Shown: positions 8,096-63,626 of the stretch, piece by piece | Layout of the letters: the number at the start of each line of letters is the position of its first letter | Position numbering within the stretch: the first letter of the stretch is position 1 | Notes under the pieces: model-generated | Seen by the model: only the letters and a program-made list of their open reading frames with translations | Told to the model about the DNA's origin: nothing | The model's database searches: none | DNA from: a virus | Length of the DNA stretch: 64,000 nucleotides | Reading direction: 5' to 3' (one strand) | IMG/VR virus record: IMGVR_UViG_3300042477_000445 | Location: 1 to 64,000 of that record | Translations under genes and position numbers: made by a program

Positions 8096-8311
8096 ATGAA
8101 ATTAGCACCACAAGCACATGCAGCAATTATGATGTGTTTACAAAAATGTATTATGGAAGAAACAGACATTCGCCCACTACTGGACGATCTTGATTTTATT
8201 GTCGATGATGATCAACCAGAATTTCTAATTGTTACTAATCCGCCTACTTTTAAAGTAAGCGAAGAAGTAAAAGAAGTAGTTGAAGAAAAGGCATTCCAAT
8301 GGAAAGAGTAG
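8096..8311 (+). CDS. small acidic hypothetical protein
   Basis: The 71 residues start MKLAPQAHAAIMMCLQKCI with AGGAG just upstream. The N-terminal half is a probable helix and the rest is acidic (DDLDFIVDDDQPEF, EEVKEVVEE). It overlaps the downstream cupin gene by 13 bases. The family is not recognised. Coupling with the cupin suggests common expression and nothing more. Confidence 0.65.
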   Translation: MKLAPQAHAAIMMCLQKCIMEETDIRPLLDDLDFIVDDDQPEFLIVTNPPTFKVSEEVKEVVEEKAFQWKE

Positions 8312-8649
8312 AAAAACCTTGGGGTTATGAAATAATCTGGGCTAAAACTGATAAATATGTAGGAAAGATTATAAGGATCAATCCAGGACATAGACTGTCT
8401 TTACAATATCATGAAAATAAATTAGAGACAATATATGTTAATGAAGGAACGTTAGAATTAATTTTAAAAAATAATAATGATATTTTTTCTAATATTTTAA
8501 CAAAGGGGGAATCTTATCATATTCCAAATAAAATGATTCATAGATTTTCTTGTCCTGCTTGGTGCTCTAACGGAGTAGAGCTGATAGAAGTATCAACACC
8601 AGAATTAAATGATGTTATCAGATTAGAAGATAGTTATGGAAGGTCATGA
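8299..8649 (+). CDS. cupin, mannose-6-phosphate isomerase type II-like
   Basis: The 116-residue single cupin domain starts ERVEKPWGYEIIW and has the metal-binding stretch PGHRLSLQYHENKLET. It then has YHIPNKMIHRF and ends with GVELIEVSTPELNDVIRLED. This matches the phosphomannose isomerase domain that forms the C-terminus of ManC (GDP-mannose pyrophosphorylase/PMI). In bifunctional ManC this domain interconverts fructose-6-P and mannose-6-P. A stand-alone copy near gmd and fcl is consistent with feeding the GDP-mannose branch. It could also be a related sugar-modifying cupin. Confidence 0.82.
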   Translation: MERVEKPWGYEIIWAKTDKYVGKIIRINPGHRLSLQYHENKLETIYVNEGTLELILKNNNDIFSNILTKGESYHIPNKMIHRFSCPAWCSNGVELIEVSTPELNDVIRLEDSYGRS

Positions 8650-43315: not shown

Positions 43316-43893
43316 TAAACAACGAGGTCCAAAATGATATTTACGAAATTGTCCGTGGGATTAGTCAAGCAGCCTCATTGATGTATGATGGACCAACTTA
43401 TAACGAAGATTCAGATAATAGAGTTGGTCTTAGAAGAGAAGAAGGAAGTTATGCTTTTGATAAAAGAATAATGGATGGTCTTCATGTTAAAATGGGTGGA
43501 AGAAAATTAACTATTAATTACCACACAGAAGTTCCCTTAGCGTATATTCACAAAGTAGGCGCTGGCAAATACGAAGATGAAGTAGAAGAAATGTTAGAAA
43601 GAGGATTAACTTTTATTAAAAAAGAATTTAAAAAAATTACTGGCAAAACTCTTTCAGTCAAAGAAGCAAAAAGAACTTTAAAGAATGGTAAGACAGTTAA
43701 GGATTTCGATGTTTTGATTCAACCAGTTTCTCGCTTTAGAACTTCCGTAACAGCACACAAATGTTATGAACTTACGGGTATCCCAGAAGCAGAAGAATAT
43801 AAGAGTGAGATTATCGCTCAATACGATAAGTACCATAGCAAACTCTTTAAGAACAAGAAGAAAGCAGAAGAAGCTCCTAAGCGAGTTGCATGA
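43303..43893 (+). CDS. hypothetical protein directly upstream of the large terminase
   Basis: I use the ATG at 43303 (MAEIVNNEVQNDIYEIVRGI), which follows AAGGAAGAG; the longer upstream frame lies inside the previous gene. It has 196 residues and is basic near the end (HSKLFKNKKKAEEAPKRVA). In T4-like genomes the small terminase precedes the large one, but this protein lacks clear helix-turn-helix signs, so I do not assign that role. It overlaps terL by 4 bases. Confidence 0.6.
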   Translation: MAEIVNNEVQNDIYEIVRGISQAASLMYDGPTYNEDSDNRVGLRREEGSYAFDKRIMDGLHVKMGGRKLTINYHTEVPLAYIHKVGAGKYEDEVEEMLERGLTFIKKEFKKITGKTLSVKEAKRTLKNGKTVKDFDVLIQPVSRFRTSVTAHKCYELTGIPEAEEYKSEIIAQYDKYHSKLFKNKKKAEEAPKRVA

Positions 43894-45470
43894 GTGTCCA
43901 ATTAACTAAGAAGGAAGTTGTTAAAGAAATAATTAAATGCGGGAAAGACCCCATTTATTTTATCAATAACTTTGTCAAAATTTCCCATCCAGTTCAAGGA
44001 CTTATTAGTTTTAAACTTTATCCATTCCAAGAAGATTGTATAAAGCAATTTCAAGATTATAGATTTAATATCGTACTTAAAGCTCGTCAGATGGGTCTTT
44101 CGACTGCAACTGCGGGCTTTATTCTTTGGATGGTATTGTTTCATAGAGAAAAGACTGTCTTATCTGTTGCTACACAATTAAATGTTGCCGTTGGTATGGT
44201 TAAGAAAGTTAAGACCATGTACAAGAATCTTCCAGAGTGGATGAAAATTGCAAAGATTCAGGGAGACAACAAATCCACACTAGAACTTAATAATGGTTCT
44301 TGGGTCAAGGCGGCGTCCACAACTGGCGACTCTGGTCGTTCTGAAGCACTCTCTTTGCTTGTCGTTGACGAAGCTGGCATCATCCAGGGTATGGATGAAA
44401 TGTGGGCTGGTATTTACCCCACGATCGCTACTGGTGGTCGCTGTATTGCAGTATCAACTCCAAAGGGTGTTGGTAACTGGTTTCATAAAACATATACTGA
44501 TGCAGAACAAGGAAAGAATAACTTTAACCCTATTAAATTAAACTGGGACTCACACCCCGACCGAGATCAAAAATGGTTCGATAGCGAAACAAGAAACATG
44601 GGTAAAAAAGAAATTGCCCAAGAATATGAATGCTCTTTTAATTTCTCAGGAAATACGATTGTTGATGGAGAAATTATACAAGAAATAAAAATAAACTGTA
44701 TGAAACCAGATCGTCGTGGTGGATTCGACGGAAACTTGTGGATTTTTAAAGAACCAGAACCAGGTAGAAGATATTTACTTTCTGCTGACGTTGCCCGTGG
44801 CGATGCAGAAGATAATTCAGCATTCCACGTATTTGATGTAGATTCTATGGAACAAGTGGCAGAGTATCAAGGTAAAATAACTCCAGAACTTTATGCCGAC
44901 CTTTTGTTTCAAATATCAAAAGACTATGGTCTATGTTTAACAATTGTAGAAAATAACTCCTTTGGATATGGTGTACTGGAAAAACTCAAATCAATGAGAC
45001 ATCCATCCATTTACCACCACAAAAAATCAAGTTATGATTTTATTGAGCCAATGACAGCAACATATGATTCCAGCGCTGTTCCTGGTTTTTCTACTAATGT
45101 TAAGATGCGTCCTCTTGCTATTGCAAAAATGGAAGAGTTTTTACGAACCAAGTCTGTAAAAATCAATTCCGAAAGACTAATTACAGAGTTAGAAACATTT
45201 GTTTGGAATAACGGCAAAGCGGAGGCAATTAAAGGTTGTAATGATGATTTAGTAATGTCCCTTGCTATTGCCTGTTGGGTAAGAGAAGGGGCCTTAATTA
45301 TTTCCCAAAGAGATGTACAATATCGTCAAGCATTCATAACAGGATTGTCAGTTGGCGGTAGAACATTTGAGTCATCAATACCAGGAATGCCTCAACATGC
45401 TACCGCCGAAAAAAGAAAAAGATGGGCAGAAGCCTACAACAATGCAAGAGAATTTTCTTGGTTAAAGTGA
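43890..45470 (+). CDS. terL: large terminase, gp17-like (ATPase plus nuclease)
   Basis: The 526 residues form a typical terminase. The adenine-binding region YPFQEDCIKQFQ is followed by a Walker A variant VLKARQMGLSTATAG, Walker B LSLLVVDEAG and the coupling motif IAVSTPKG. The C-terminal RNase-H-like nuclease begins with LLSADVARGDAEDNSAFHVFD and continues with TIVENNSFG and KGCNDDLVMSLAIA, which holds the last Asp pair. It packages DNA through the portal encoded next. The length is a little below T4 gp17 (610). Confidence 0.95.
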   Translation: MSVQLTKKEVVKEIIKCGKDPIYFINNFVKISHPVQGLISFKLYPFQEDCIKQFQDYRFNIVLKARQMGLSTATAGFILWMVLFHREKTVLSVATQLNVAVGMVKKVKTMYKNLPEWMKIAKIQGDNKSTLELNNGSWVKAASTTGDSGRSEALSLLVVDEAGIIQGMDEMWAGIYPTIATGGRCIAVSTPKGVGNWFHKTYTDAEQGKNNFNPIKLNWDSHPDRDQKWFDSETRNMGKKEIAQEYECSFNFSGNTIVDGEIIQEIKINCMKPDRRGGFDGNLWIFKEPEPGRRYLLSADVARGDAEDNSAFHVFDVDSMEQVAEYQGKITPELYADLLFQISKDYGLCLTIVENNSFGYGVLEKLKSMRHPSIYHHKKSSYDFIEPMTATYDSSAVPGFSTNVKMRPLAIAKMEEFLRTKSVKINSERLITELETFVWNNGKAEAIKGCNDDLVMSLAIACWVREGALIISQRDVQYRQAFITGLSVGGRTFESSIPGMPQHATAEKRKRWAEAYNNAREFSWLK

Positions 45471-45479
45471 GAATAAAAT

Positions 45480-47531
45480 ATGGCAGACAAAAAACCAGAT
45501 TATACAAAAAATATACAAAATCACAACTCTCCTTTGTTCAAGAGACTAACCAAGTTATTTTCTGGTCCTATTGTCAATTTTAGAGCGCAAAAACCAACAA
45601 GAGAAAGAAAATATCAATTAGATAAATATGCTAGTCGTTTTAATTCTCTCCAAGGTTTATCATACAAGAAAAACGTCTACAACCCATTTGACTCACTGCG
45701 CTCTGGAAACATGGCAATCCAAAGCCGTGCGGAAAGATATGTTGACTTTGAACAAATGGAATTTTATCCAGAGTTAGCATCGGCTCTTGATGTTTATGCA
45801 GATGAAATGACGACCTTTACAGAGGTTTCAAAACTATTAAAGATTGATTGCCATAACGAAGAAATCAAGAACATTATTGACACATTGTTCTACAAGACAT
45901 TAAATATTGAATCAAACCTGTTTAACTGGGCAAGAACAATGTGCAAGTATGGAGATTTCTTTTTATATCTTGATACAGACGAAGTCTTGGGTGTTAAATC
46001 AGCAATTGGTCTTCCTTCTCAAGAGATTGAAAGACTAGAAGGCGAAGATCAAACCAATCCAAACTATATTCAGTTCCAGTGGAATGCTGGTGGTTTAACT
46101 TTTGAGAACTGGCAGATTGCTCACTTTCGTGTACTGGGTAATGATAAGTATTCTCCCTATGGTACATCTGTATTAGATCCAGCAAGAAGAATTTGGAGAC
46201 AATTAATTCTTGTAGAAGATGCAATGATGGCAGCGCGTGTTATTCGTGCTCCAGATAGAAAAGTATTTGAGATCGACGTTTCTGGTATTCCCCCAGAAGA
46301 TGTTGAACAATACATGCAGAGAGTCATTACTCAACTCAAAAGACATCAAGTTGTAGATGATACAACAGGGCAAGTAGATCTTCGCTATAATCCTCTAAGC
46401 GTAGAAGAAGATTATTATCTGCCTGTCCGCGCTGGTTCGGCATCCAAGATCACTCCACTTGCCGGTCAAAAAGGTATTGATTCAATTGATGATATTAAAT
46501 ACCTAAAAGATAAATTGTTTGCGGCGATTAAGATTCCAAAAGCTTATCTATCTCAATCAGATCAAGGAGGGGAAGATAAATCAACACTTGCTCAGAAAGA
46601 CATTCGTTTTGCTAGAACAATTCAAAGACTACAAAGAGCAATGCTTTCAGAAATGGAAAAAATTGGTATTGTTCACCTTTATACTCTTGGATTTAGAGGT
46701 GATGATTTAATCTCATTTAAACTTACTCTTAATAATCCTTCTCGTATTGCTCAAATGCAAGAACTAGAGGGATTAAGTCAAAAACTTGATGTTGCTTCAA
46801 AAGCGCTTGGTGCAAACTTTTTCTCTCGTCAATATGTTTCTAAGAATATATTTGGCATGTCTGACGAAGATTTCGAGAAGATTGAAAGACAGCGTTTCTA
46901 CGATAAGAGAGTTGATGCTGCTCTTGAAGCATCTGCTCAAGATACTCCAACAGCAGGAGATATGAGTGGACTTGGCGCACCAGCAGGCGCAGAAACTCCA
47001 ACAGCAGGAGCAGAGGCAACGCTTCCAACAGAAGCCCCGGGCGGACTAGGAGCAGGATTAACACCACCAACGCCCGAAGGAGAAACACCAGCAGGAGAAA
47101 CACCAGAGGCAGGAGCAGAAGCCCCACCCGCCCCAGGTGAAGAAGGCGGATCAGCACTATTAGCAGCGCCACCACCAACAGCACCAGCCAAAAGAGACAG
47201 TGTTGTAGCAAGGGACGACAAAGATAAACCAGTTAAAATTGAATATGCCGATGGAGCGTACATAACTCTTGGTTCAAAGGGCAAAAAATATAAACCAGTT
47301 GATGATGACAAAAGAGAAGATCGCGGACCATTTACAAGACATGTTAAATCTTTATGGGGAAGTCAAGCGTATGGTAAGAACTCCAAGAGAAATACTTTCG
47401 GATTTGGATATGTTACATCAGATCGTTTAGCAAAAGGTATTGCAGAGTCAATTGATACTAATTATAATAAGTCAGCCGAGGATCAATTAAATAAACTTGA
47501 CCGGGATTTAGAAACCATAATGGAAGAGTAA
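45480..47531 (+). CDS. portal protein, gp20-like, with Ala/Pro-rich C-terminal insert
   Basis: The protein has 683 residues; T4 gp20 has 524. The core is recognisable: AERYVDFEQMEFYPELASAL and DVYADEMTTF, YGDFFLYLDTDEVLGV, APDRKVFEIDVSGIPPEDVE, and the AIKIPKAYLSQSDQGGEDKS segment followed by LAQKDIRFARTIQRLQRAM. Residues about 490-570 are a low-complexity Ala/Pro/Gly/Glu stretch absent from T4, followed by a basic-acidic tail. The portal forms the 12-mer at the head vertex through which the terminase pumps DNA. The spacing to terL is 9 bases. Confidence 0.93.
   Translation: MADKKPDYTKNIQNHNSPLFKRLTKLFSGPIVNFRAQKPTRERKYQLDKYASRFNSLQGLSYKKNVYNPFDSLRSGNMAIQSRAERYVDFEQMEFYPELASALDVYADEMTTFTEVSKLLKIDCHNEEIKNIIDTLFYKTLNIESNLFNWARTMCKYGDFFLYLDTDEVLGVKSAIGLPSQEIERLEGEDQTNPNYIQFQWNAGGLTFENWQIAHFRVLGNDKYSPYGTSVLDPARRIWRQLILVEDAMMAARVIRAPDRKVFEIDVSGIPPEDVEQYMQRVITQLKRHQVVDDTTGQVDLRYNPLSVEEDYYLPVRAGSASKITPLAGQKGIDSIDDIKYLKDKLFAAIKIPKAYLSQSDQGGEDKSTLAQKDIRFARTIQRLQRAMLSEMEKIGIVHLYTLGFRGDDLISFKLTLNNPSRIAQMQELEGLSQKLDVASKALGANFFSRQYVSKNIFGMSDEDFEKIERQRFYDKRVDAALEASAQDTPTAGDMSGLGAPAGAETPTAGAEATLPTEAPGGLGAGLTPPTPEGETPAGETPEAGAEAPPAPGEEGGSALLAAPPPTAPAKRDSVVARDDKDKPVKIEYADGAYITLGSKGKKYKPVDDDKREDRGPFTRHVKSLWGSQAYGKNSKRNTFGFGYVTSDRLAKGIAESIDTNYNKSAEDQLNKLDRDLETIMEE
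46945..47190 (+). repeat. low-complexity Ala/Pro/Gly/Glu coding stretch in the portal gene
   Basis: This segment encodes short imperfect repeats of the type TPTAG, AGAE, PEGETPAGETPEAGAEA and PPAPGE. The DNA is locally far richer in G and C than its surroundings (gca, gga, cca codons), and on the opposite strand it creates long Leu-rich and Ser/Ala-rich phantom frames. It is probably a flexible linker. Confidence 0.75.
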
Positions 47532-51611: not shown

Positions 51612-51803
51612 ATGGAAATAACTGTTATTATAAAATTACCAGACGGCACTACAAAAACAGTAGAACTTGTAGGAGCAAATATAAATACAACTTGGAACAG
51701 TACCGTACCATATAATCCATCTTTAACACCAGATGCTCCAATCGTAGGACATCTATCATTGCAAGGTATAATAAAAGATAGTTTATTGGTTGGTTCAGTT
51801 TAA
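51612..51803 (+). CDS. small hypothetical protein after the tail fibre
   Basis: The 63 residues start MEITVIIKLPDGTTKTVELV, with GGGAG upstream. Strand-rich N-terminus and a Pro/Asn-rich middle. It lies 12 bases behind the tail fibre gene and 10 bases before the next start. It may be fibre-associated; the family is not recognised. Confidence 0.6.
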   Translation: MEITVIIKLPDGTTKTVELVGANINTTWNSTVPYNPSLTPDAPIVGHLSLQGIIKDSLLVGSV

Positions 51804-51813
51804 TAGAGGAACA

Positions 51814-52161
51814 ATGCTACAACTAATTTATTTTATTCTCGTTTCTTACGGTTTAACCCAAATACTTTGTTATGGTAGTATATTAAATCCAATAAGACCA
51901 ACAAAAGGTAAACTTGGAGAACTATTCAAGTGTCCTATGTGTATGGGATTTTGGGTAGGAATGTTCCTATGTGGCATTTCGCCATATACAGAACTATTTA
52001 GTTTTGGACAGACATTTATTAATTTTATCCTGTTGGGGTGCTTAAGTTCAGGAACAAGCTACATACTGAACATGGGAGTAAGCGATGACGGCTTTAATTT
52101 TAAAATCAAATCAGGGAGTCAACCTCTGGACAAACAAGTGGATGAAAAGACCACCAACTAA
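51814..52161 (+). CDS. small membrane protein, DUF1360-like
   Basis: I use the ATG at 51814 with AGAGGA upstream, giving 115 residues; a longer frame starts inside the previous gene. It has a hydrophobic N-terminus (LQLIYFILVSYGLTQILCYG), then GELFKCPMCMGFWVGMFLCG, and a second hydrophobic helix near residue 70. The Cys-x-x-Cys-x-Gly-Phe-Trp motif is typical of small membrane proteins of the DUF1360 type that recur in large phages. Function unknown. Confidence 0.65.
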   Translation: MLQLIYFILVSYGLTQILCYGSILNPIRPTKGKLGELFKCPMCMGFWVGMFLCGISPYTELFSFGQTFINFILLGCLSSGTSYILNMGVSDDGFNFKIKSGSQPLDKQVDEKTTN

Positions 52162-52402: not shown

Positions 52403-52993
52403 ATGAATAAATATGTTTTAACAGAATTTCTTGAACTTGATAACGATTCTTCTCTTCTAACAGAAGACGATAAGAGAATGATTGAAGCTGGCGATGTTAT
52501 TCTTGCTGGCCGTTTACAAAAAGCAGATGCTAAGAACGGCAACGGCAGAGTTTATCCAAAGAGAACTCTCCAAAGAGAAGTGGAAAACTATAAAAAGCTT
52601 GTTCAAGAAAAAAGAGCATTAGGCGAATTAGACCACCCAGATTCTTCTGTTATTGAATTAAAGAATGCTTCTCACATTGTAACACACATTGAGATGAAAG
52701 GCGATGAAGTTGTTGGCAAACTAAGACTATTAGATACTCCAGCAGGTAGAATCGCTAAAGATCTTATTAAAGGTGGAGTCAAACTTGGTGTCTCTTCTCG
52801 CGGTCTTGGATCAACAAAAGAACAAAGCGGAGTTACGATGGTACAAGACGACTTCCAATTAATATGCTTTGACCTTGTTTCAGAACCATCCACAACTGGT
52901 GCTTTCTTATTTAAAGAGCACAAAGAACCAAATATCTTTACAAAATCCGATAAGATTTATAGAGCAATAAACGACATTCTTATTGGAGAGTGA
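52403..52993 (+). CDS. prohead core protease, gp21-like
   Basis: The 196 residues match the T4 gp21 length (212). Visible motifs are LAGRLQKADAKNGNGRVYPK, the catalytic-His region ALGELDHPDSS, and the catalytic-Ser region GVKLGVSSRGLGS, in the order of the U9/S78-type prohead proteases related to herpesvirus assemblin. The C-terminus has FDLVSEPSTTGAF. It should cleave scaffold, capsid and internal proteins after L/I-x-E. It sits next to the core and capsid genes as in T4. Confidence 0.92.
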   Translation: MNKYVLTEFLELDNDSSLLTEDDKRMIEAGDVILAGRLQKADAKNGNGRVYPKRTLQREVENYKKLVQEKRALGELDHPDSSVIELKNASHIVTHIEMKGDEVVGKLRLLDTPAGRIAKDLIKGGVKLGVSSRGLGSTKEQSGVTMVQDDFQLICFDLVSEPSTTGAFLFKEHKEPNIFTKSDKIYRAINDILIGE

Positions 52994-52995
52994 TA

Positions 52996-53847
52996 ATGCT
53001 GAATGAAGCAATATTACAGAAAGAACTTTACAAGGAGTTAGAACAATTTTTAGCAAGTTCTAATTTCCTAGACGAAGATAATGAATTTACTGATTCTGTG
53101 AGAGTTGCTGGTTATGGAGAGATTGAACAAACAGAAAGTGCTACTGCATTATCAAAAGCATTAAAAACATTCTTCAAAACCAAAAAAGTTCCTTTATCTG
53201 TTGTTGTATCTACGATAAATCCATCAGATGTTAAAATGGAACCATCCTCACAGACTAACGAACATCCAAATAATTATTTAATCGCTGCCGAAGCAGGATT
53301 AGATCAAAAAGGTAAGATGCAGTTGATACTTCATACTGCGGAAACCTCTGAAGATTTTAATCCGAGCTTAATGAATAAAGATAAAATTATTCACAGCATA
53401 GCAACAGCAATTAGGCACGAACTAATACACGATAGGCAATACACTGGGTTGTCTAAGAAAATGGGTATTACAAGACCAGAGGCAAAACAAAAATACGAAG
53501 ACTGGGGACAAATACCAGGAGCAGATACAGATAGAAAACAATACTTAGGAGCAGACATCGAACTAGATGCTTTTGGTCATGAGTTTGCTGAATTGCTTGC
53601 TCGCAATTTTGGCATAGATAAAGCGATGGAATTGGTCGCCACATCAGATTCTACAGAACTACAAAAAGTAGCAAAAGATATAGATTTTGGCGATAATCTT
53701 AGAGAATATTATATAGACCATCCACAAGAAAGATTTACAGGCAAATTACAAAAGAAAATAAGAAAATATTTAAAGCATTTTAAAGATCAACAGATTTATG
53801 AAAACTATTTATATAGTGTTTTGAGAAAAAATTTATTAGAAGGTTAA
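52996..53847 (+). CDS. putative zinc metallopeptidase (HEXXH) in the head cluster
   Basis: I use the ATG at 52996 (MLNEAILQKELYKELEQFLA, with GGAGAG upstream); an upstream GTG at 52990 overlaps the previous gene. It has 283 residues. Around residue 145 it contains IRHELIHDRQYTG, an HEXXH zincin motif, and about 45 residues later ELDAFGHEFAELLARNFG, whose Glu could be the third zinc ligand. The N-terminus is an acidic helix like the other head-internal proteins. Position between the serine prohead protease and the core proteins suggests it is packaged or acts in head maturation. Enzyme activity is unproven. Confidence 0.6.
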   Translation: MLNEAILQKELYKELEQFLASSNFLDEDNEFTDSVRVAGYGEIEQTESATALSKALKTFFKTKKVPLSVVVSTINPSDVKMEPSSQTNEHPNNYLIAAEAGLDQKGKMQLILHTAETSEDFNPSLMNKDKIIHSIATAIRHELIHDRQYTGLSKKMGITRPEAKQKYEDWGQIPGADTDRKQYLGADIELDAFGHEFAELLARNFGIDKAMELVATSDSTELQKVAKDIDFGDNLREYYIDHPQERFTGKLQKKIRKYLKHFKDQQIYENYLYSVLRKNLLEG

Positions 53848-53848
53848 T

Positions 53849-54223
53849 ATGACAAAAAGTGAAATGAAAAAAATTATGAAACCACTTGTAAAAGAATGTC
53901 TCCAAGAGATGCTTTTAGAAGAAGGTTTATTATCAAATCTTATTAGTGAAGTAAATAAAGGTAATAAAACTACCTTCTCTGAATCTTCTAGAAGAGATCC
54001 AACTCCTCTAAGACCAAGAGAGCAAGTTAAACCACAAGCAAAACCACAAATAAACGAAGTTAGAAGAAAATTAGCAGACTCCATAGGAAATGGAGCATAT
54101 GCGAATGTCTTCGAAGGAATCGAACCAGCACCAAGTCCAAGTAATCTTGGAGGAGATAATGGAGATCCAGGACTGGATTTATCAGTCCTTAGTAACATCC
54201 CTGGATTAAAGGGATTTAAATGA
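53849..54223 (+). CDS. putative head-internal/core protein
   Basis: The 124 residues start MTKSEMKKIMKPLVKECLQE, followed by MLLEEGLLSNLISEVNKG. The rest is Pro/Arg-rich and ends with NIPGLKGFK. The N-terminal helix with LEEG near residue 25 resembles a leader cut by the gp21-type protease (consensus L/I-x-E followed by Gly or Ala). It is 1 base behind the metallopeptidase gene. An ACTATTTAT box inside that gene (53804-53812) is 45 bases upstream and could serve it. Confidence 0.55.
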   Translation: MTKSEMKKIMKPLVKECLQEMLLEEGLLSNLISEVNKGNKTTFSESSRRDPTPLRPREQVKPQAKPQINEVRRKLADSIGNGAYANVFEGIEPAPSPSNLGGDNGDPGLDLSVLSNIPGLKGFK

Positions 54224-54229
54224 GGCGTT

Positions 54230-54472
54230 ATGGCAAACAAGAGAGTTAATGTCGAAGTTAAACTAAGACTAGGCGAACATCAAGATAAAATGATCAAAAG
54301 ATTTCTTAATAAAGTTAAGAAAGAAAAGATTGTTGAAGAGTTACAAAATAGAAGATATTATGAAACTCCAACAGCAAAAAGATCAAGATTGAAGAATCGT
54401 AGAAAGAAAGTACTTGCTAAACTTCGTAGAGAAAGAGAAGCAATCGACAGACCAAAAGAAAAGAAAGATTAA
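54230..54472 (+). CDS. ribosomal protein bS21 homolog
   Basis: The 80 residues begin MANKRVNVEVKLRLGEHQDK, followed by MIKRFLNKVKKEKIVEELQN and RRYYETPTAKRSR, and end in a Lys/Arg-rich tail. The order of a beta-strand, then a helix with RF.KKV.KE.I..EL..R.YYE.P..KR matches bS21, the small-subunit protein that contacts the 3' end of 16S rRNA. bS21 is known to be carried by some aquatic phages. A phage copy could replace the host protein on the 30S subunit and change initiation. It is unexpected in the middle of a head-gene operon. The gene could in principle be a nucleic-acid-binding relative with another role. Confidence 0.75.
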   Translation: MANKRVNVEVKLRLGEHQDKMIKRFLNKVKKEKIVEELQNRRYYETPTAKRSRLKNRRKKVLAKLRREREAIDRPKEKKD

Positions 54473-54502: not shown

Positions 54503-54931
54503 ATGTCAAATATACAGTGGCCTTATGCTGGGCTTGGAAATGCCCCGTCTTATCAAGTAAGTGGTATTCCATTTGCAACAAGCAGTAATGCAATTCCTGC
54601 TCTTGGCACAGCTCCTTTGCAAATTAGCTTTCCTTATGTAACAAAGAATGTAACAATTCACCTTTTAAATAAAAATAAAAAATTAAGAGTAGGTTTTAGT
54701 CAAAACGGAGTTACTGGTTCTGGAACAAATTATTTTGTAATTGACAGCAATTCTCCTTCTGATCCAATAGTGACTTTTGATGTAAAGTGTTCCTCTGTTT
54801 TTTTATTGAGTGATAGTGCAGACATTTTAACAGGTTCTGTTTATGCAGCATTAACTGGAATACAAACATCCGAGTTACAAGCATCTGGACCAAATGGAGC
54901 AAATTGGTCTGGTTCGTTGGGAGTTGGATAG
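54503..54931 (+). CDS. putative head decoration or small virion protein
   Basis: The 142 residues start MSNIQWPYAGLGNAPSYQVS, a distinctive N-terminus I associate with an uncharacterised structural family in large aquatic phages. The body is beta-sandwich-like (NVTIHLLNKNKKLRVGFSQN, NYFVIDSNSPSDPIVTFDV). It has its own promoter-like box upstream and another downstream, so it is a single-gene late unit made in quantity, which fits a decoration protein. No direct proof. Confidence 0.6.
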   Translation: MSNIQWPYAGLGNAPSYQVSGIPFATSSNAIPALGTAPLQISFPYVTKNVTIHLLNKNKKLRVGFSQNGVTGSGTNYFVIDSNSPSDPIVTFDVKCSSVFLLSDSADILTGSVYAALTGIQTSELQASGPNGANWSGSLGVG

Positions 54932-54970: not shown

Positions 54971-56779
54971 ATGAGTTCAATGTTAGAGCAAGCAATTCTA
55001 GATGCTAAAGAATTAAAAGAAGCAGCAATTAAAAACGCCCAACAGTCCATTATCGAGAAATACTCTAATGAATTTGAAGGTGAGATAGAAAAACTACTAG
55101 AACAAGCCGCTGCTCCAGCTGATCCCGCTGCGGCTGCTCCCGCTGCTGATCCAATGGCCGGTCTTGGTGCTGCTCCTGCGGCTGCTCCTATGCCCGGTAT
55201 GACCATGCCAGGATCTGCTCCTGTTGATCCAGAAAAAGCAAAGTCAGACTCAGATAATAAATCTTCAATGTTTGATAAACTAAATTATGCTTTTAAAGAC
55301 GGAGAAGTAATTGAAGATAAAATTTTCCCAACAGGACTTGTTGAGGTAGATTTAGATTCTTTGTCAGAATTTAGTTTTGAAGATAATAAAAAAACACCAG
55401 AACAAATGGCGTTACAAGAACTTAAAAACCTTTCTCTTAGAGAGCAGATTGAAGAAGAAATGAATGATGACGATGATTATGATTTCGATTCAGATTCTTT
55501 TCCATATGAAGACTCAGAAGAAGAAGATGATGAGAATGAAGAAGAATCAGAAGAAGACGAAGAACTAGACGACGAAGAATTCGAAGATGAAGACGAATTA
55601 GAAATGGACGATGAAGATTTTGAAGATAAAGATATGGAATCCGATTCGGATGAATTAGCAGATTTACAAGATTATAATGATGAAGGTAGTGTTGACCTAG
55701 AAGACGAAGAATCCGATATGGACATTGATATTGAAGACGAAGAGTTTACAGACGACGAAGATATGGAAGATGAAGATCTTTATGGCACAGAAGACGATGT
55801 AGGATTCCACGTTGATTACGATACAGACGAAGAGGATGAAGAATCCGAAGAAGACTATAATCCAGACGCTGACGTAGAAGATTTTGAAGATGAAGAGTCA
55901 GAAGAAGATGTAGACGAAGAAGAAGAGGACTCCGAGGAAGACGAAGAGGACGAAGAATATTATTATGACGACGAAGAGGAAGATTCTGAGGAAGACGAAG
56001 AAGATTCCGAAGAGGACGATGAGGAAGAATCAGAGGACGAGGAAGAAGATTTAGATGAAGCAAGAGATTTAACAGATAAAGAAAAGTCTAAACTTGACGA
56101 TATTATTTCAAGATTAGAGAGAGCCTCTAAGTCTATCGAAAAAGGTAGTGCAAAGAATATGGTTGATGCTTCTGCTCGTCAACTAAAAGATCTACTAGAT
56201 TCTCTTAAGGGTTCGGATAAAGAAGAACTACAAGAAGCTATTAAACTTGATTGGAAGAGATCTGGTCAAAGATCTCCATTCACCGGTATGTTTAAAGAAG
56301 AGGCAGAGCATGATTACATGCTAGAGCAAGTTCAAGCACAAATTGAAGCATTAGAACAAGAAGTCGAAGAACTTCAAGAATCTAATAAAAAACTAAAAAG
56401 TGGTTTAAAAGAGTCAATTAATCTTGTTGAAAATTTAACTGATAAAGTTAAAAAATATGAACAAAAATTGCACGAATCAAGATTATTGAATTATAAGCTA
56501 CTATATACTAATAAGGCGCTATCAGATAGTTCCCTAAATGGACAGCAAAAAAATAAAATTGCTGAATCTATTGACGGTGCCAAGACAGCTGAAGAAGTAA
56601 AATTGCTTTATGAAACATTAAAAAGCACAATGCGGGATGGAACCAGTAGAAGTACACCCAAATCATTGAGCGAGGCAGTTGAAAGACGTTCTTCTTCACT
56701 TTTGCTAAGAGGCTCTCGTGCGGAGCCTAAGAAGCAAGATGATTTTGCTGAACGTATGAAACGGTTAGCAGGTTTATAA
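54971..56779 (+). CDS. prohead core/scaffold protein, gp22-like, with long acidic region
   Basis: The protein has 602 residues. The N-terminus (SSMLEQAILDAKELKEAAIK) is an acidic helix as in T4 core proteins. An Ala/Pro/Gly-rich linker (about residues 46-80) follows, then an extremely Asp/Glu-rich region at about 160-362. The C-terminal 200 residues are coiled coil (EQVQAQIEALEQEVEELQES) and end NDDFAERMKRLAGL-like, matching the end of scaffold proteins that contact gp23. It sits immediately before the capsid gene, as gp22 does in T4. It is much longer than gp22 (269) because of the acidic block. Confidence 0.82.
   Translation: MSSMLEQAILDAKELKEAAIKNAQQSIIEKYSNEFEGEIEKLLEQAAAPADPAAAAPAADPMAGLGAAPAAAPMPGMTMPGSAPVDPEKAKSDSDNKSSMFDKLNYAFKDGEVIEDKIFPTGLVEVDLDSLSEFSFEDNKKTPEQMALQELKNLSLREQIEEEMNDDDDYDFDSDSFPYEDSEEEDDENEEESEEDEELDDEEFEDEDELEMDDEDFEDKDMESDSDELADLQDYNDEGSVDLEDEESDMDIDIEDEEFTDDEDMEDEDLYGTEDDVGFHVDYDTDEEDEESEEDYNPDADVEDFEDEESEEDVDEEEEDSEEDEEDEEYYYDDEEEDSEEDEEDSEEDDEEESEDEEEDLDEARDLTDKEKSKLDDIISRLERASKSIEKGSAKNMVDASARQLKDLLDSLKGSDKEELQEAIKLDWKRSGQRSPFTGMFKEEAEHDYMLEQVQAQIEALEQEVEELQESNKKLKSGLKESINLVENLTDKVKKYEQKLHESRLLNYKLLYTNKALSDSSLNGQQKNKIAESIDGAKTAEEVKLLYETLKSTMRDGTSRSTPKSLSEAVERRSSSLLLRGSRAEPKKQDDFAERMKRLAGL
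55450..56058 (+). repeat. Asp/Glu-rich low-complexity coding stretch
   Basis: About 200 codons, mostly GAA, GAC, GAT and GAG, encode runs such as DEEEDSEEDEEDEE. The DNA forms many imperfect GAAGAC/GAAGAT repeats and produces long Leu/Arg-rich phantom frames on the other strand. In the protein it is probably a disordered polyanion inside the prohead. Confidence 0.85.
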
Positions 56780-56810: not shown

Positions 56811-58640
56811 ATGGCAAGTATAGTCGAAAGATTAACAGAAAATATTGTTGAAAGAAATCTCCTTCGTGAAGGCGCTGCCCTCTCAAAGAAATGGGAAAGA
56901 ACAGGTCTTCTAGAAGGAATCGATAGTGAGATGACAAAGACAACCATGTCTCGTCTTCTCGAAAATCAAGCAAAGGAACTACTCCGCGAAGCTTCCACAA
57001 TGTCCGCAGGTGACGTTGAAGGTTTCGCAGCAGTTGCATTCCCAATTGTTAGACGCGTATTCGGTGGTCTAATTGCAAATGAACTCGTTGCAGTTCAACC
57101 AATGAGCCTCCCAAGCGGTCTAATCTTCTTCCTTGATTTTACCTATAGCAATGACACAGGAAACAAAACATTCGCTGGTGCAGTCGGTGGCCAATCTATT
57201 TACGGCGGTAACGTTGTAGCTAGCCAAATCACTGGTGGTGTTAGCTTAACTGGTGTTGATGCAAGTGGCGTACAAAACCTAGAAAAGAGCTTCTACTCTT
57301 TAAATAACGGTTTCTCAAGCGTAACTGGCTCAAGAGTGCTTAATCATTCTTGGAATTATGGCAACGCTGGTAAGGCTGGTGCATCTTCTACGGTTGTTGT
57401 TTACCAAACTTCCAGCTGGACAGACGTTGGTCTATCAACTGCTACAGGTAGTTCATTAACTGGCTCAACAGATGCAGCGTTCGTCGCATACGATCCAGAT
57501 GTTCTTGCAGACACTTCTGCTTTAACATACCAAAAATTAAGACTATTCTTTGATTTGGGAACTTGGAATCAACTAGATAGAAATAATCTAGTAGCAATCA
57601 ACATTACTGGTTCAACAATTTCTGGTTCATTGGTTAGAAGACTAACTAAATTGGGTCCAGTAAGCCAATCTTTAGATGTAGTTGTTAAAACAGATGCTGG
57701 TGCTCCAATTTCAGAAGTTGGTGTTGCCCCATCTATTGCATCAACAACTTTTGCAATTAGGGATACATTAACAACTGGTAATTCTATAGGTTCTGTTCTT
57801 ACCGATCTATATGGTCTAGAAGGCGCTGGATCTGGTTCAACATTGAATGGTCAGGATATTCCTGGGGCTAACTTTACAATTCCAGAGATTGACATCAAAG
57901 TTGATAGCATCGCTGTAACAGCTCAAACCAAGAAACTCAAGGCCAAGTGGTCACCAGAATTAGGTCAAGACCTAAATGCTTACCATAATCTTGACGCCGA
58001 AGTTGAGTTAACAAGCATCCTCTCCGAGCACGTTGCTCTTGAAATCGATCAAGAAATCCTCAACGATCTCGTTAAGGGTGCAACAGCTGGTACTAAGTAC
58101 TGGAGCCGTAGACCAGGTAAGTTTGTCAACCGTGACACAGGTGCAAGCATCACATCAGTTGGTGCCCCACCAGACTTCACAGGTAATGTCAGCATGTGGT
58201 ATGAAACACTCATTGAAACAATCAATGACGTTTCTGCTCAAATCCACAGAAAGACAAGACGTGGTGGTGCAAACTTCCTCGTAACTTCACCAGAAGTTGC
58301 TAACCTCCTAGAGTTCACCTCTGGTTTCCGCGCTGATGTCAGCATGGAAGACCTAAAGGGCGGTTCAGTTGGCGCAGTCAAGGCTGGTAGCCTCAGCAAG
58401 AAGTTTGATCTTTATGTTGATCCATATTTCCCACGCAACCTAATCCTAGTTGGTCGTAGAGGCAAGGCATTCCTCGAAAGCGGTTATGTCTACGCTCCAT
58501 ACGTCCCACTAATGATTACACCAACAATCTTCGGTACAGAAGACTTTGTACCAAGAAAGGGTCTAATGACTCGCTACGCCAAGAAGATGGTTCGTCCAGA
58601 CATGTATGGCCTAGTAGTTTGCCAAGACCTAATTGGTTAA
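56811..58640 (+). CDS. major capsid protein, gp23-like
   Basis: The protein has 609 residues; T4 gp23 has 521. The N-terminus has the LLREGAALSKKWERTGLLEG leader and ENQAKELLREASTM, whose LRE-Ala junction (Glu60/Ala61) fits cleavage by the gp21-type protease at the same place as in T4 (Glu65). VEGFAAVAFPIVRRVFGGLIA and then NELVAVQPMSLPSGLIFFLDF are the best conserved gp23 segments. The end has LMTRYAKKMVRPDMYGLVV. The ribosome site AAAGGAG is strong, and both ends of the gene use more C-ending codons than its neighbours, as expected for very high expression. An intrinsic terminator follows. Confidence 0.96.
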   Translation: MASIVERLTENIVERNLLREGAALSKKWERTGLLEGIDSEMTKTTMSRLLENQAKELLREASTMSAGDVEGFAAVAFPIVRRVFGGLIANELVAVQPMSLPSGLIFFLDFTYSNDTGNKTFAGAVGGQSIYGGNVVASQITGGVSLTGVDASGVQNLEKSFYSLNNGFSSVTGSRVLNHSWNYGNAGKAGASSTVVVYQTSSWTDVGLSTATGSSLTGSTDAAFVAYDPDVLADTSALTYQKLRLFFDLGTWNQLDRNNLVAINITGSTISGSLVRRLTKLGPVSQSLDVVVKTDAGAPISEVGVAPSIASTTFAIRDTLTTGNSIGSVLTDLYGLEGAGSGSTLNGQDIPGANFTIPEIDIKVDSIAVTAQTKKLKAKWSPELGQDLNAYHNLDAEVELTSILSEHVALEIDQEILNDLVKGATAGTKYWSRRPGKFVNRDTGASITSVGAPPDFTGNVSMWYETLIETINDVSAQIHRKTRRGGANFLVTSPEVANLLEFTSGFRADVSMEDLKGGSVGAVKAGSLSKKFDLYVDPYFPRNLILVGRRGKAFLESGYVYAPYVPLMITPTIFGTEDFVPRKGLMTRYAKKMVRPDMYGLVVCQDLIG

Positions 58641-58663
58641 TCAACTAAGGGTTAATTAAGCAG

Positions 58664-58697
58664 AACCCCTGTCAGGGAAACTTGACAGGGGTTTTGT
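58664..58697 (+). terminator. intrinsic terminator after the major capsid gene
   Basis: AACCCCTGTCA (58664-58674) pairs with TGACAGGGGTT (58683-58693) around an 8-base loop, an 11-base perfect stem ending in TTTTG. It is the strongest hairpin seen in the window and isolates the capsid transcript from the envelope-protein genes. Confidence 0.92.
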
Positions 58698-58708
58698 GTT
58701 TCTGATAA

Positions 58709-58717
58709 ACTATTTAT
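58709..58717 (+). promoter_or_regulatory. candidate phage late promoter box for the envelope cassette
   Basis: ACTATTTAT follows the capsid terminator by 12 bases and lies 23 bases upstream of the ATG at 58732, with AAGGAG between. The box links the lipoprotein genes to the same late programme as the head genes. Confidence 0.65.
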
Positions 58718-58731
58718 CAAAAGGAGAAACT

Positions 58732-60603
58732 ATGAAAAAACTTTTATTATCTTTATTATTGTTGACTGCATGTGGCGACGATTTAGGTTGGGAACACAAA
58801 GAAACAAAACACGATTGTGCTGATGCAGTTGTTGGAGACAGCGGTGTTTGTAATTTATGTCAAGACGTAACGGAGACAAAAGATGAGCAATCTGGAACAG
58901 AAGAAGTTGTTAGCGATGTTGCTGACAGTACCCAAAGTGACGTTCTCGCTGACAGTGGGAGCGATGACGCTGACGTTTCTGTCCCTGATGGCGTTACAGG
59001 AACGGACACAGAAGATACGCAAGATGCACAAGATGTACCAGAAGATGTAACTCAGGACGTTGCTCCACCACCAGAATGTGTTACGGCGACCGATTGTGTC
59101 GTTATAGCTTTGCCTTGTGTGGCACCAGATTGCCAAGAAGGTAAGTGTGTTAAAGTTCCATTTGATACACCATGTTCCGATAATAATGAATGTACGGCAG
59201 GCGATCAATGCCAACTTGGTGTATGTGTTGCTGGTATTCAAATTAATTGTGACGATCTAGAATCTTGCACATTAGATTCTTGCGAGGCAGATAAAGGTTG
59301 CGTACATTTGCCAGTTGATGCAACTTGTGTCGATGGAGATGGTTGCACCGCAGAAGATATTTGCAAAGATGGTAAATGTGTAGGCGGTAAACCATTTAAT
59401 TGCGATGATGGAAATGTTTGCACAGATGATACTTGCGAGACATTTGGTAAGGATGAAATTCATGTTTGTAATCATTTGCCAAATCAAGCGACTTGTACAG
59501 ACAACGATGTTTGCACATTAGATGATGCCTGTGAGGGTGTTGTTTGCAAATCAAAAGCAGTTGCTATTTGTGATGATAATAATGTTTGTACAGACAATAC
59601 TTGCGATCCAGCAAATGGTTGTGTTTATTTAGCAAATGTAGCAACTTGTACCGACAATGACGCTTGTACTGTGAATGATTTATGCTCCGAAACTGTTTGT
59701 AAATCTGGATTAGTATTAAGTTGTGCAGATAATAATGAATGTACAACTGATCTATGCAAGTCAGAATCAGGTTGTTATTTTGAGAATAACACAAATGTTT
59801 GTAGCGATAATAATGTTTGTAGCATTGACGATAAGTGTGAGGCAGGATCATGTATTGCTGGCGCTCAAAAGGTTTGTGATGACGCTAATCTTTGCACCGT
59901 TGATTCATGTGATGCTGTAAATGGATGTGCTTCCGTAAATGCTGTTGATGGTACAAAATGTGCTGAAGGCGTCTGTAAAGACGGCTCTTGTGCTTGTGTA
60001 AGCGGGTTTGGCTGTGCTTTGCCTGCCTTCGTATATACTGGCGATGTGACTGCTGGTATGTTAGGAGGAATGGGTGGTGGTGTCGGTCCAAAGATGGGTT
60101 GCCCTGCTACTGATGTTTTAATCGGTTTAGGTTTTGATTTCAGTAATGGTCAAAAAACAGCCACTAGAACAACTGCCGTTTGTGGTAAAGTTACAATTGA
60201 ACAAAATGGAACTGTCATAACAACTCAAACAACTACACAAAAATCAGGTGGTTCTGGATGTTTTGGTTGGGATCCTTCAACTCCAACTCCGCTTGTAGTT
60301 TGCAAGAGTGGTTGGGCTGTTGTTGGTATTAAAGGCAAAAAACCCGGAGGCACTCTATTCAATTCTGTAAAAGTTGTTTGTGGTAAACTCGATGTTGCTG
60401 GCAAACCAACTGGCGAGACAGAAGTTTTAAATGTAGAAGGAACACTAGGCTCAGGTGTTGATCAAGAAGTATTATGCCCAGAAAAAACAATTGCTCGTTA
60501 TTTTGAGACAAGAGCTGGTTGTGGGCAAGATGCTTTGACTATGTATTGTGCTACTGCAACACCAGATTGTACTGGTCAAGAATTAATTTGTAAGGATTTA
60601 TAA
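58732..60603 (+). CDS. exported Cys-rich repeat lipoprotein with lectin-like C-terminus
   Basis: I choose the ATG at 58732 (AAGGAG upstream, signal peptide at once), giving 623 residues. MKKLLLSLLLLTAC is a lipoprotein signal with lipobox LTAC, and Gly at +2 suggests outer-membrane sorting. An Asp/Val/Thr-rich linker (about 50-120) precedes five repeats of about 50 residues (146-405) with CxDNNxCTxxDxC and CDDxNxCTxDxCDxxxGC units, the Dictyostelium CTDC type common in Myxococcota. The last 200 residues hold three similar blocks (C...VLIGLGF...VCGK; VCKSGWAVVGIKG...VVCGK; LCPEKTIARYF...YCA) that resemble a three-fold beta-prism lectin. Location: cell surface of a Gram-negative host. Role unknown. 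Confidence 0.8.
   Translation: MKKLLLSLLLLTACGDDLGWEHKETKHDCADAVVGDSGVCNLCQDVTETKDEQSGTEEVVSDVADSTQSDVLADSGSDDADVSVPDGVTGTDTEDTQDAQDVPEDVTQDVAPPPECVTATDCVVIALPCVAPDCQEGKCVKVPFDTPCSDNNECTAGDQCQLGVCVAGIQINCDDLESCTLDSCEADKGCVHLPVDATCVDGDGCTAEDICKDGKCVGGKPFNCDDGNVCTDDTCETFGKDEIHVCNHLPNQATCTDNDVCTLDDACEGVVCKSKAVAICDDNNVCTDNTCDPANGCVYLANVATCTDNDACTVNDLCSETVCKSGLVLSCADNNECTTDLCKSESGCYFENNTNVCSDNNVCSIDDKCEAGSCIAGAQKVCDDANLCTVDSCDAVNGCASVNAVDGTKCAEGVCKDGSCACVSGFGCALPAFVYTGDVTAGMLGGMGGGVGPKMGCPATDVLIGLGFDFSNGQKTATRTTAVCGKVTIEQNGTVITTQTTTQKSGGSGCFGWDPSTPTPLVVCKSGWAVVGIKGKKPGGTLFNSVKVVCGKLDVAGKPTGETEVLNVEGTLGSGVDQEVLCPEKTIARYFETRAGCGQDALTMYCATATPDCTGQELICKDL
59170..59950 (+). repeat. five tandem Cys-rich (CTDC-type) repeats
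   Basis: Five units of about 150 bases encode the pattern C(S/T/V)DxxxCTxxDxCxxxxCxxG...CDDxNxCTxDxCxxxxGC. The units start near 59170, 59326, 59494, 59644 and 59797. They have drifted in DNA sequence but keep all cysteines, so the repeat is under selection at protein level. All the cysteines are expected to be disulphide-bonded outside the cytoplasm. Confidence 0.8.
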
Positions 60604-61562: not shown

Positions 61563-63626
61563 ATGTTAAAGAAAATAATACCGCTTTTATTTTTAGTCTC
61601 CTGTTCGCAAGAGACAGCAGCGCCCACTATTCAAGGGGGCATTGGCTTTGACATACAGCAAGACACCACCATCATTGTTAAAGATATAGAACAACCAGAT
61701 GTTATTGAATCAGACACAGAACCAGTGGAAGATACACAGGTAGAAGACGCGGAAAATGACCTAGAAAATACGGAAATAATAGAAGTAGAAGAAGATGCGG
61801 TCGAAGATGTTGAGCCTCCTGTAGAGGACACAGAAGAGCCTGAATGTATTGATGAAGACGGCGATGGGTTTGGTGAAAACTGCAACTTTGGTATTGATTG
61901 CGATGACTTCAATCCAAACTTTGGAGATGTATGCCCAGATTGCTCAAAGGCTGGAACTATAGGCTGTACTTGTTCTGGCAAGCCTTTATCGTGTTATGAA
62001 TACGATCCAGCGACAGTAGGAAAAGGCTTGTGTAAAAAAGGTCAGCAATTATGTACAGACGGCTTCTGGAAAGCATGTAGCGGGAGCATTGGACCAGCAC
62101 CAGAACTCTGCGACTTCAAAGACAACGACTGCGATGGCGAAACAGACGAGGGCGTAAAATCAACTTGTGGTAATTGTGATCTAACTTGTAATCAACAAAC
62201 TATTGGTTCTGGTGGTAAAGGATGGAATCTAAATAGTGAAAATGCTACAGGGCTTGGTTTGGATCCACAAGGTAATGTAACTCTTGATTTATCAGCGATC
62301 TCGCTCAACTTGAAGTTTATTTGGATCGCAAACTCACCAAATAACACTGTATCCAAAGTTGATTGTAAGACCATTACAGAAGTTGGTAGATTCCAAGTTT
62401 GCTCAGACCCTTCAAGAACTTCTGTTGACCTTGAGGGAAATGTTTGGGTTGCTTGCCGTGGCGATGGTGCCGTAACAAAAATTATCGCAGATAAAACAAA
62501 ATGTGCTGATAAAAACGGCAATGGTATTATTGAAACATCGACAAGCTCACAGCCAATAGGCAATGATGAGTGTATCAAGTTTATTGTAAACCCCGGCAAA
62601 GGATCTTATGCTAGAGGTGCCGCTGTAGATAAAGAAAATCATGTATGGATAGGTTATTGGAACCAAAAAACAATGGTTCGTCTTAATGCCAACACTGGCG
62701 CAACGATGACGGAAATTCCATTGGGTGTATCGCCCTATGGTTTAGTAATTGACCAAAAGGGAATGATCTGGGCGCAAGGTGAGTTCAACACGCTGGTCAT
62801 GATAGACCCTTTGACACAAGTCGTTACAAAGAATAATACCTTACCACAACTAAAGTTCCCTGCTAGTGCTTACGGGCTTAATGTAGATAAGTATGGTCGT
62901 TTGTGGGTTGCTTCGGGCAACAAAGCATCTGTTTATGATCCCAAGACATTACAATGGAAGGTCGTTAACATGAACTGGGGTGGTGGTCGTGGTGTTGCTA
63001 CATCAAATGATGGTTATACTTATGTCGCCGTAGATGGTTCAGGCGGGGCAGTAAAAATAAATGGCAATGTTGATCCACCACAAGTAGAAGGTTTTATCAA
63101 GGGAGCAGGAAGCCCTGTCGGTGCTGCTATTGACTATGATGGTTTTGTTTGGGTCGTAAATCAAGGTGGTTCAAGCGCAACAAAGATGGATCCAAATACA
63201 ATGTCTGCGGTAGGAACTGTTTCAGTTGGTTCATCTCCATACACATACTCAGACATGACTGGTTATACTCTAAACTACTTTACTGCGCCAAAAGGTCAAT
63301 ACAGCACAGTATTCTTTGGAAGTGTATCATCAAACCCAATAACAACTTCCACAATGAAACAAGTGTGGCAGTCAATTTCAGCAGAAGCGGATCTTCCAGA
63401 AGGGACAGCATTGAGGTTTAGATTAAGAGCGGGCAATACAAAAGTAGAACTAGAAAATGCTAAATGGTCTGAGCCTATTGATTTTCCGCCAGAAGTATTT
63501 CCTTATGATCTTACCAAGGCAAATATTATCGGCAACATGCTACAAGTTGAAATACAGTTGACAACAAAAGATAAAAAGGTTGCTCCAACTCTAAAATCTA
63601 TAACGGCGAAGTCCAAACTGATTTAA
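61563..63626 (+). CDS. MopE-like lipoprotein with beta-propeller
   Basis: The protein has 687 residues. MLKKIIPLLFLVSC is a lipoprotein signal (lipobox LVSC, Ser at +2). Residues 25-93 are an acidic linker. Two metal-binding-like Cys/Asp motifs follow, CIDEDGDGFGENC near 94 and LCDFKDNDCDGETDEG near 180, of the MopE/thrombospondin type frequent in Myxococcota. Residues 205-540 form an NHL/Vgb-like propeller with repeated (V/I)D..G.(V/I)W(V/I)A blades, for example TSVDLEGNVWVACRGDGAVT, AAVDKENHVWIGYWNQ and AAIDYDGFVWVVNQGG. The last 140 residues are a separate beta domain. It is 6 bases behind the barrel gene. Role unknown; exported and surface-anchored. Confidence 0.8.
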   Translation: MLKKIIPLLFLVSCSQETAAPTIQGGIGFDIQQDTTIIVKDIEQPDVIESDTEPVEDTQVEDAENDLENTEIIEVEEDAVEDVEPPVEDTEEPECIDEDGDGFGENCNFGIDCDDFNPNFGDVCPDCSKAGTIGCTCSGKPLSCYEYDPATVGKGLCKKGQQLCTDGFWKACSGSIGPAPELCDFKDNDCDGETDEGVKSTCGNCDLTCNQQTIGSGGKGWNLNSENATGLGLDPQGNVTLDLSAISLNLKFIWIANSPNNTVSKVDCKTITEVGRFQVCSDPSRTSVDLEGNVWVACRGDGAVTKIIADKTKCADKNGNGIIETSTSSQPIGNDECIKFIVNPGKGSYARGAAVDKENHVWIGYWNQKTMVRLNANTGATMTEIPLGVSPYGLVIDQKGMIWAQGEFNTLVMIDPLTQVVTKNNTLPQLKFPASAYGLNVDKYGRLWVASGNKASVYDPKTLQWKVVNMNWGGGRGVATSNDGYTYVAVDGSGGAVKINGNVDPPQVEGFIKGAGSPVGAAIDYDGFVWVVNQGGSSATKMDPNTMSAVGTVSVGSSPYTYSDMTGYTLNYFTAPKGQYSTVFFGSVSSNPITTSTMKQVWQSISAEADLPEGTALRFRLRAGNTKVELENAKWSEPIDFPPEVFPYDLTKANIIGNMLQVEIQLTTKDKKVAPTLKSITAKSKLI

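Follow-up and report, generated by a model that had tools for sequence, protein, structure and literature searches.

The window, by which we mean the whole 64,000-nucleotide stretch of viral DNA analyzed here, belongs to a virus record of 74.9 kb and contains a cluster of head genes that all lie on one strand. These run in the order terL, T4-type portal, several further genes, S77 protease, a 285-aa gene, p124, bS21, p142, a scaffold-like gene and Gp23. A homolog of ribosomal protein bS21 is thereby only a few genes away from TerL, portal, prohead protease and capsid, the co-location considered by Chen et al. 2022 (PMC9723584). The features of the cluster are as follows.

43890..47531, + strand: terminase large subunit (terL, starts 43890) and T4-type portal (starts 45480), from profile matches
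51790-52161, + strand: DUF1360 protein shortly before the prohead protease, kept in almost every related head operon
52403..52993, + strand: prohead core serine protease, T4 gp21-like (PF03420 Peptidase_S77, 89.8 bits; PHROG 207)
52990..53847, + strand: ORF for a 285-aa protein with a HELIHD zinc-peptidase-like motif, between the protease and p124
53849..54223, + strand: p124, a conserved small protein found beside bS21 in most relatives
54222..54225, + strand: GAGG, Shine-Dalgarno (SD)-like site of bS21, from a scan of the sequence at the start region
54230..54472, + strand: bS21, 80 aa (PF01165, TIGR00030, PHROG 21469, AlphaFold model)
54503..54931, + strand: p142, predicted beta-sandwich protein (AlphaFold model, pLDDT 78)
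54971..56779, + strand: acidic scaffold-like gene directly 5' of the capsid gene, from position, acidic composition and retention in relatives
56811..58640, + strand: major capsid protein, Gp23 (PF07068, 235 bits; PHROG 138)
58660..58697, + strand: strong terminator-like hairpin just 3' of the capsid gene, 17 pairs followed by a T-rich tail

Family assignment, neighboring genes and expression signals

The ORF at 54230-54472 starts with ATG, and three profile libraries agree in confirming, at the level of sequence, that its 80-aa product is a phage-encoded bS21 homolog: Pfam PF01165 (Ribosomal_S21) at 39 bits against a curated cut-off of 27 (E 6.8e-10), NCBIfam TIGR00030 at 35.5 bits (cut-off 28.95) and PHROG 21469 'ribosomal protein S21' at E 1.2e-7. 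Nearly all matches in a PDB sequence search were likewise bS21 proteins, from many ribosomes, the best at 3e-5. The initial annotation had called the gene a bS21 homolog, which these profiles and an AlphaFold model matching ribosomal bS21 chains bear out. Membership in another small basic family, which it had named as the outcome that would overturn the call, did not materialize, all 72 aligned relatives matching PF01165 and no other Pfam family. Purifying selection is evident from a dN/dS of about 0.2 against two relatives, which together with conservation in relatives argues that this is not a chance ORF. Near cellular bS21 was absent from two scans of the genomes of 84,980 species: the first returned none, and the second, whose search pattern was biased towards Gammaproteobacteria and Acidobacteriota, gave best identities of 30-47%.

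Of the labels first given to the flanking genes, 'decoration-like' is plausible for p142 downstream, whose sequence matched no family and whose model has matches to beta-sandwich viral and appendage proteins that are too weak for a family name. Upstream, p124, which had been labeled head-internal, begins with a charged, helix-like stretch of the kind found in other head genes and matched nothing in family searches or in a PDB profile search. The p142 family, with one to three copies in tandem in the interval from bS21 to the scaffold (window, L022, L024 and L025), evolves rapidly (dN/dS 0.36-0.56), which would suit a head protein exposed at the surface. The 285-aa gene, which gave no match in family searches, is found in the window and in one relative (L005) and not in four others (L002, L004, L006 and L007); many relatives have other inserts at the protease/p124 junction. 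Family search of the scaffold-like gene gave no match of weight. The hairpin at 58660..58697 is likely the end of the head operon.

Several genes outside the head operon also drew our attention. Directly after the terminator lies a gene for a 635-aa protein (58696-60603, + strand). With MKKLLLSLLLLTACGDD near the start, this protein is probably a lipoprotein, and it has Cys-rich Dicty_CTDC repeats, which seem unusual in phage; one relative (L014) has a different lipoprotein-like gene 3' of its capsid gene. Further on, a 687-aa protein (61563-63626, + strand) has beta-propeller-type matches (SGL, Reg_prop) and weak MopE-like matches. A cysteine dioxygenase-like protein (8299-8649, + strand; PHROG 7851) and an aminotransferase-like gene (902-2179; PHROG 2736) are possible auxiliary metabolic genes by their family matches, and a search for defense families gave none.

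The GAGG site of bS21 overlaps the TGA stop of p124 (54221-54223), and bS21 starts 6 nt past the p124 end, an overlap which suggests that translation of bS21 is coupled to that of p124. Matches of at least 4 nt to an SD site precede 34 of 52 starts in the phage, where 9 would be expected, and the strongest in the lineage belong to capsid genes, with a mean of 6.2 nt. Because the phage genes use SD-led initiation, SD blindness of the Bacteroidia type is probably not applicable here. A special SD for self-regulation of bS21, as in Flavobacteriales, was not seen, the strength of the site being average for the operon. The T4 late promoter TATAAATA was not clearly enriched (18 occurrences against 11.6 expected, with 6 of 100 shuffles as high) and sigma-70-like sites were at chance level; on this basis we propose no promoter.

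Conservation and descent of the head-operon copies

Scans seeded with bS21 recovered 21 viral loci, and every locus that reached upstream of bS21 showed the head cluster on the same strand. Circularity was lessened by using the protease as seed instead. Among the best 80 protease-seeded loci, bS21 was present in 62, and where at least 2.5 kb was available downstream of the protease it was present in 49 of 50, the sole exception (L167) being without both bS21 and p124; since the alignment used as seed was drawn from phages with bS21, and only the 80 closest loci were retained, this 98% holds for the lineage and not for all T4-like phages. All 62 copies lie on the strand of the head genes, and for 55 of the 62 the start is no more than 35 nt from where p124 ends. 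Such presence at a fixed same-strand site argues that bS21 is a core gene of the lineage and not stray cargo. The initial annotation had placed bS21 inside the head operon and had taken it to be late for that reason; its place and shared strand recur across the relatives, so that late expression is probable. Farther afield, a weak bS21 match directly precedes the scaffold-like and capsid genes of LR756508, an unannotated phage of 484 kb. No bS21 was found at the corresponding place in Flavobacterium phage immuto or the 595-kb LR756511, or near the capsid gene of RM378.

Distances among bS21 copies correlate with those of neighboring genes, with a Mantel r of 0.40 for the portal, 0.45 for the protease, 0.60 for p124 and 0.65 for p203, whereas the largest permuted r was 0.20 (500 permutations), as expected under shared descent. 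A tree of 100 rows separates the 72 head-operon copies from cellular and pelagiphage bS21 by a supported branch (98/91), though with few alignment columns and a biased cellular sample this tree is suggestive only. That branch also sets the copies of Microcystis phage Mel-JY01 and LR756508 apart from the head-operon lineage, and because both are long branches the head-operon site could have been filled once or repeatedly.

Predicted fold and lineage-specific residues

The AlphaFold model of bS21, built on 72 relatives, has a pLDDT of 88.8 and helices at 18-32, 34-42 and 47-73. In a Foldseek search of the PDB, the top 20 matches were bS21-type chains from bacterial, chloroplast and mitochondrial ribosomes, with TM up to 0.72; as the protein is short, E-values were only 0.1-2, and we take the fold match as support and not as proof.

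Residue positions below follow the 80-aa phage protein (P0001), with equivalence to Tyr54 taken through the numbering of 7jil_z. The window bS21 has L26, K30 and K33, where cellular bS21 has K, E (D, S or T in others) and G. These departures are common to the phage lineage, and scores stay above the family cut-offs; the cellular residues at these positions are common ones in cellular bS21 and no requirement of the curated models. Position 30, which is residue 24 of 7jil_z and lies within the first helix, is K or R in all 72 head-operon copies and E in all 61 distinct cellular copies found, even though the cellular search pattern permitted K; elsewhere in cells it is S or T in Bacilli and D in F. 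johnsoniae. Position 26 is K in the 61 cellular copies and mostly hydrophobic in phage copies, and position 33 is G in cells and K or R in 45 of the 72 phage copies. F25, Y/F44, P47 and T/S48 are kept in the phage bS21s. Divergence of phage bS21 in the first helix was also reported by Chen et al. 2022 (PMC9723584).

In Bacteroidia, Tyr54 of F. johnsoniae bS21 helps to hide the anti-SD (PMC9976891). The equivalent site is K60 in the window bS21 and is aromatic in only one of the 72 relatives, so that the aromatic residue required of a Bacteroidia-type anti-SD-sequestering bS21 is absent here.

Possible role and comparison with known systems

Of all the ribosomal proteins that viruses encode, phage bS21 is the commonest. 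We consider it reasonably probable that bS21 is a core late gene of this T4-like lineage, most likely exchanging onto the host 30S and favoring phage late mRNAs. The gene would be transcribed together with those for prohead protease, scaffold and capsid, its translation probably coupled to upstream p124, and the protein would exchange onto the host 30S near the 3' end of 16S rRNA at peak capsid synthesis. A 30S with phage bS21 would then favor initiation on SD-bearing phage late mRNAs. Its near-universal presence at the same place in close relatives suggests that phage bS21 probably enters host ribosomes late in infection, and a fixed same-strand site despite bS21 identity as low as ~20-30% argues for a tie to late protein synthesis in the lineage. 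Pelagiphage (HTVC008M) bS21 does enter E. coli ribosomes (Mizuno et al. 2019, PMC6375957), and altered cellular bS21 changes which mRNAs are translated, as with a Francisella homolog (PMC9578407) and F. johnsoniae bS21 (PMC9976891). Because the window protein departs from cellular bS21 at sites that are otherwise invariant, it may not bind in an equivalent way.

With bS21 from a pelagiphage in place, ribosomes of E. coli had ~5% of control translation (Mizuno et al., PMC6375957), so incorporation may inhibit and not redirect. The protein could thus be a poison or brake that enters the 30S and lowers host translation or SD-independent initiation while phage late mRNAs with strong SD sites are spared, as the strong SD matches of capsid genes and the charge change at position 30 in helix 1 would allow. 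Yet according to Mizuno et al. the inactivity may reflect host mismatch, and genes expressed at very high levels, such as that for a capsid, commonly have a strong SD; we hold this reading to be quite unlikely. Packaging of bS21 in the head as a core or internal protein, injected with the DNA and acting on ribosomes from the first minutes, was also raised by Chen et al. 2022 (PMC9723584) and would suit a small, very basic protein encoded between protease and scaffold at a nearly invariant place among head genes. Its gene product, however, is without the charged N-terminal helix-like stretch of p124 and several neighboring head genes and keeps the bS21 core, and location alone is no proof; in our judgment packaging is distinctly improbable. 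Least of all do we expect that the bS21 fold is reused off the ribosome as an RNA- or DNA-binding head assembly protein. The near-obligate place in the head operon and the changes at cell-fixed residues (K26 to hydrophobic, E30 to K, often G33 to K/R) would fit such reuse, but all 72 relatives score as Ribosomal_S21 with F25, Y/F44, P47 and T/S48 kept, and the predicted fold matches bS21 in ribosomes.

Exchange onto the host 30S, the reading we prefer, can be carried further into a speculation that we rate as unlikely: that the lineage has made bS21 obligate for head production, as a separate clade with a lysine patch in helix 1 and coupling to p124, such that capsid-operon mRNAs with strong SD sites would win at 30S initiation and p124 would possibly be a partner or delivery factor.

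Phage bS21 itself (Mizuno et al. 2019) and its head-gene neighborhood and late expression (Chen et al. 2022, PMC9723584) are already published. In hundreds of phage genomes, the latter authors reported bS21 near genes for the prohead protease or the capsid, with the protease at most 10 genes away in 310 of 900. They found from metatranscriptomes that bS21 of Bacteroidetes phages is transcribed at the structural-gene stage, and they proposed a late switch of 30S specificity for these phages, the idea that the initial annotation had put forward as possible for the window; in their phages the head region was not transcribed as a single operon. The Bacteroidetes jumbo phages that they describe resemble the window in being aquatic, in having bS21 among TerL, portal, prohead protease and capsid, in proposed late expression and in first-helix divergence from cellular bS21. 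They differ in having bS21 on the strand opposite the head genes, an aromatic residue where Tyr54 lies and SD-poor hosts, whereas the window has bS21 on the same strand, K at that position and SD-using genes. Because the window and all 62 copies are on the same strand, we do not place them in clades a-e as these are described there. The pelagimyophages HTVC008M and Mosig also carry phage bS21 (PMC6375957; PMC7029224), but theirs is near replication genes (sliding clamp, clamp loader) and on the other side of the supported branch. The Francisella and F. johnsoniae bS21 are comparable in how they may work; these are cellular genes, and the Bacteroidia mechanism needs the Tyr54 that is absent in the window.

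New here are the near-invariant same-strand site after p124, a distinct sequence clade with its own residues, and an isolate in which the layout recurs. This isolate, Mel-JY01 (PP395634.1), has protease, a 154-aa protein, RpsU (bS21), further genes, a scaffold-like gene and capsid on one strand, as in the window. Unlike the window, its bS21 is distant, lies outside the lineage in the tree and has G at the K33 position, and the protein upstream was not recognized as p124. Mel-JY01 is cultured, with a known host, and its shared layout makes the role of bS21 directly testable.
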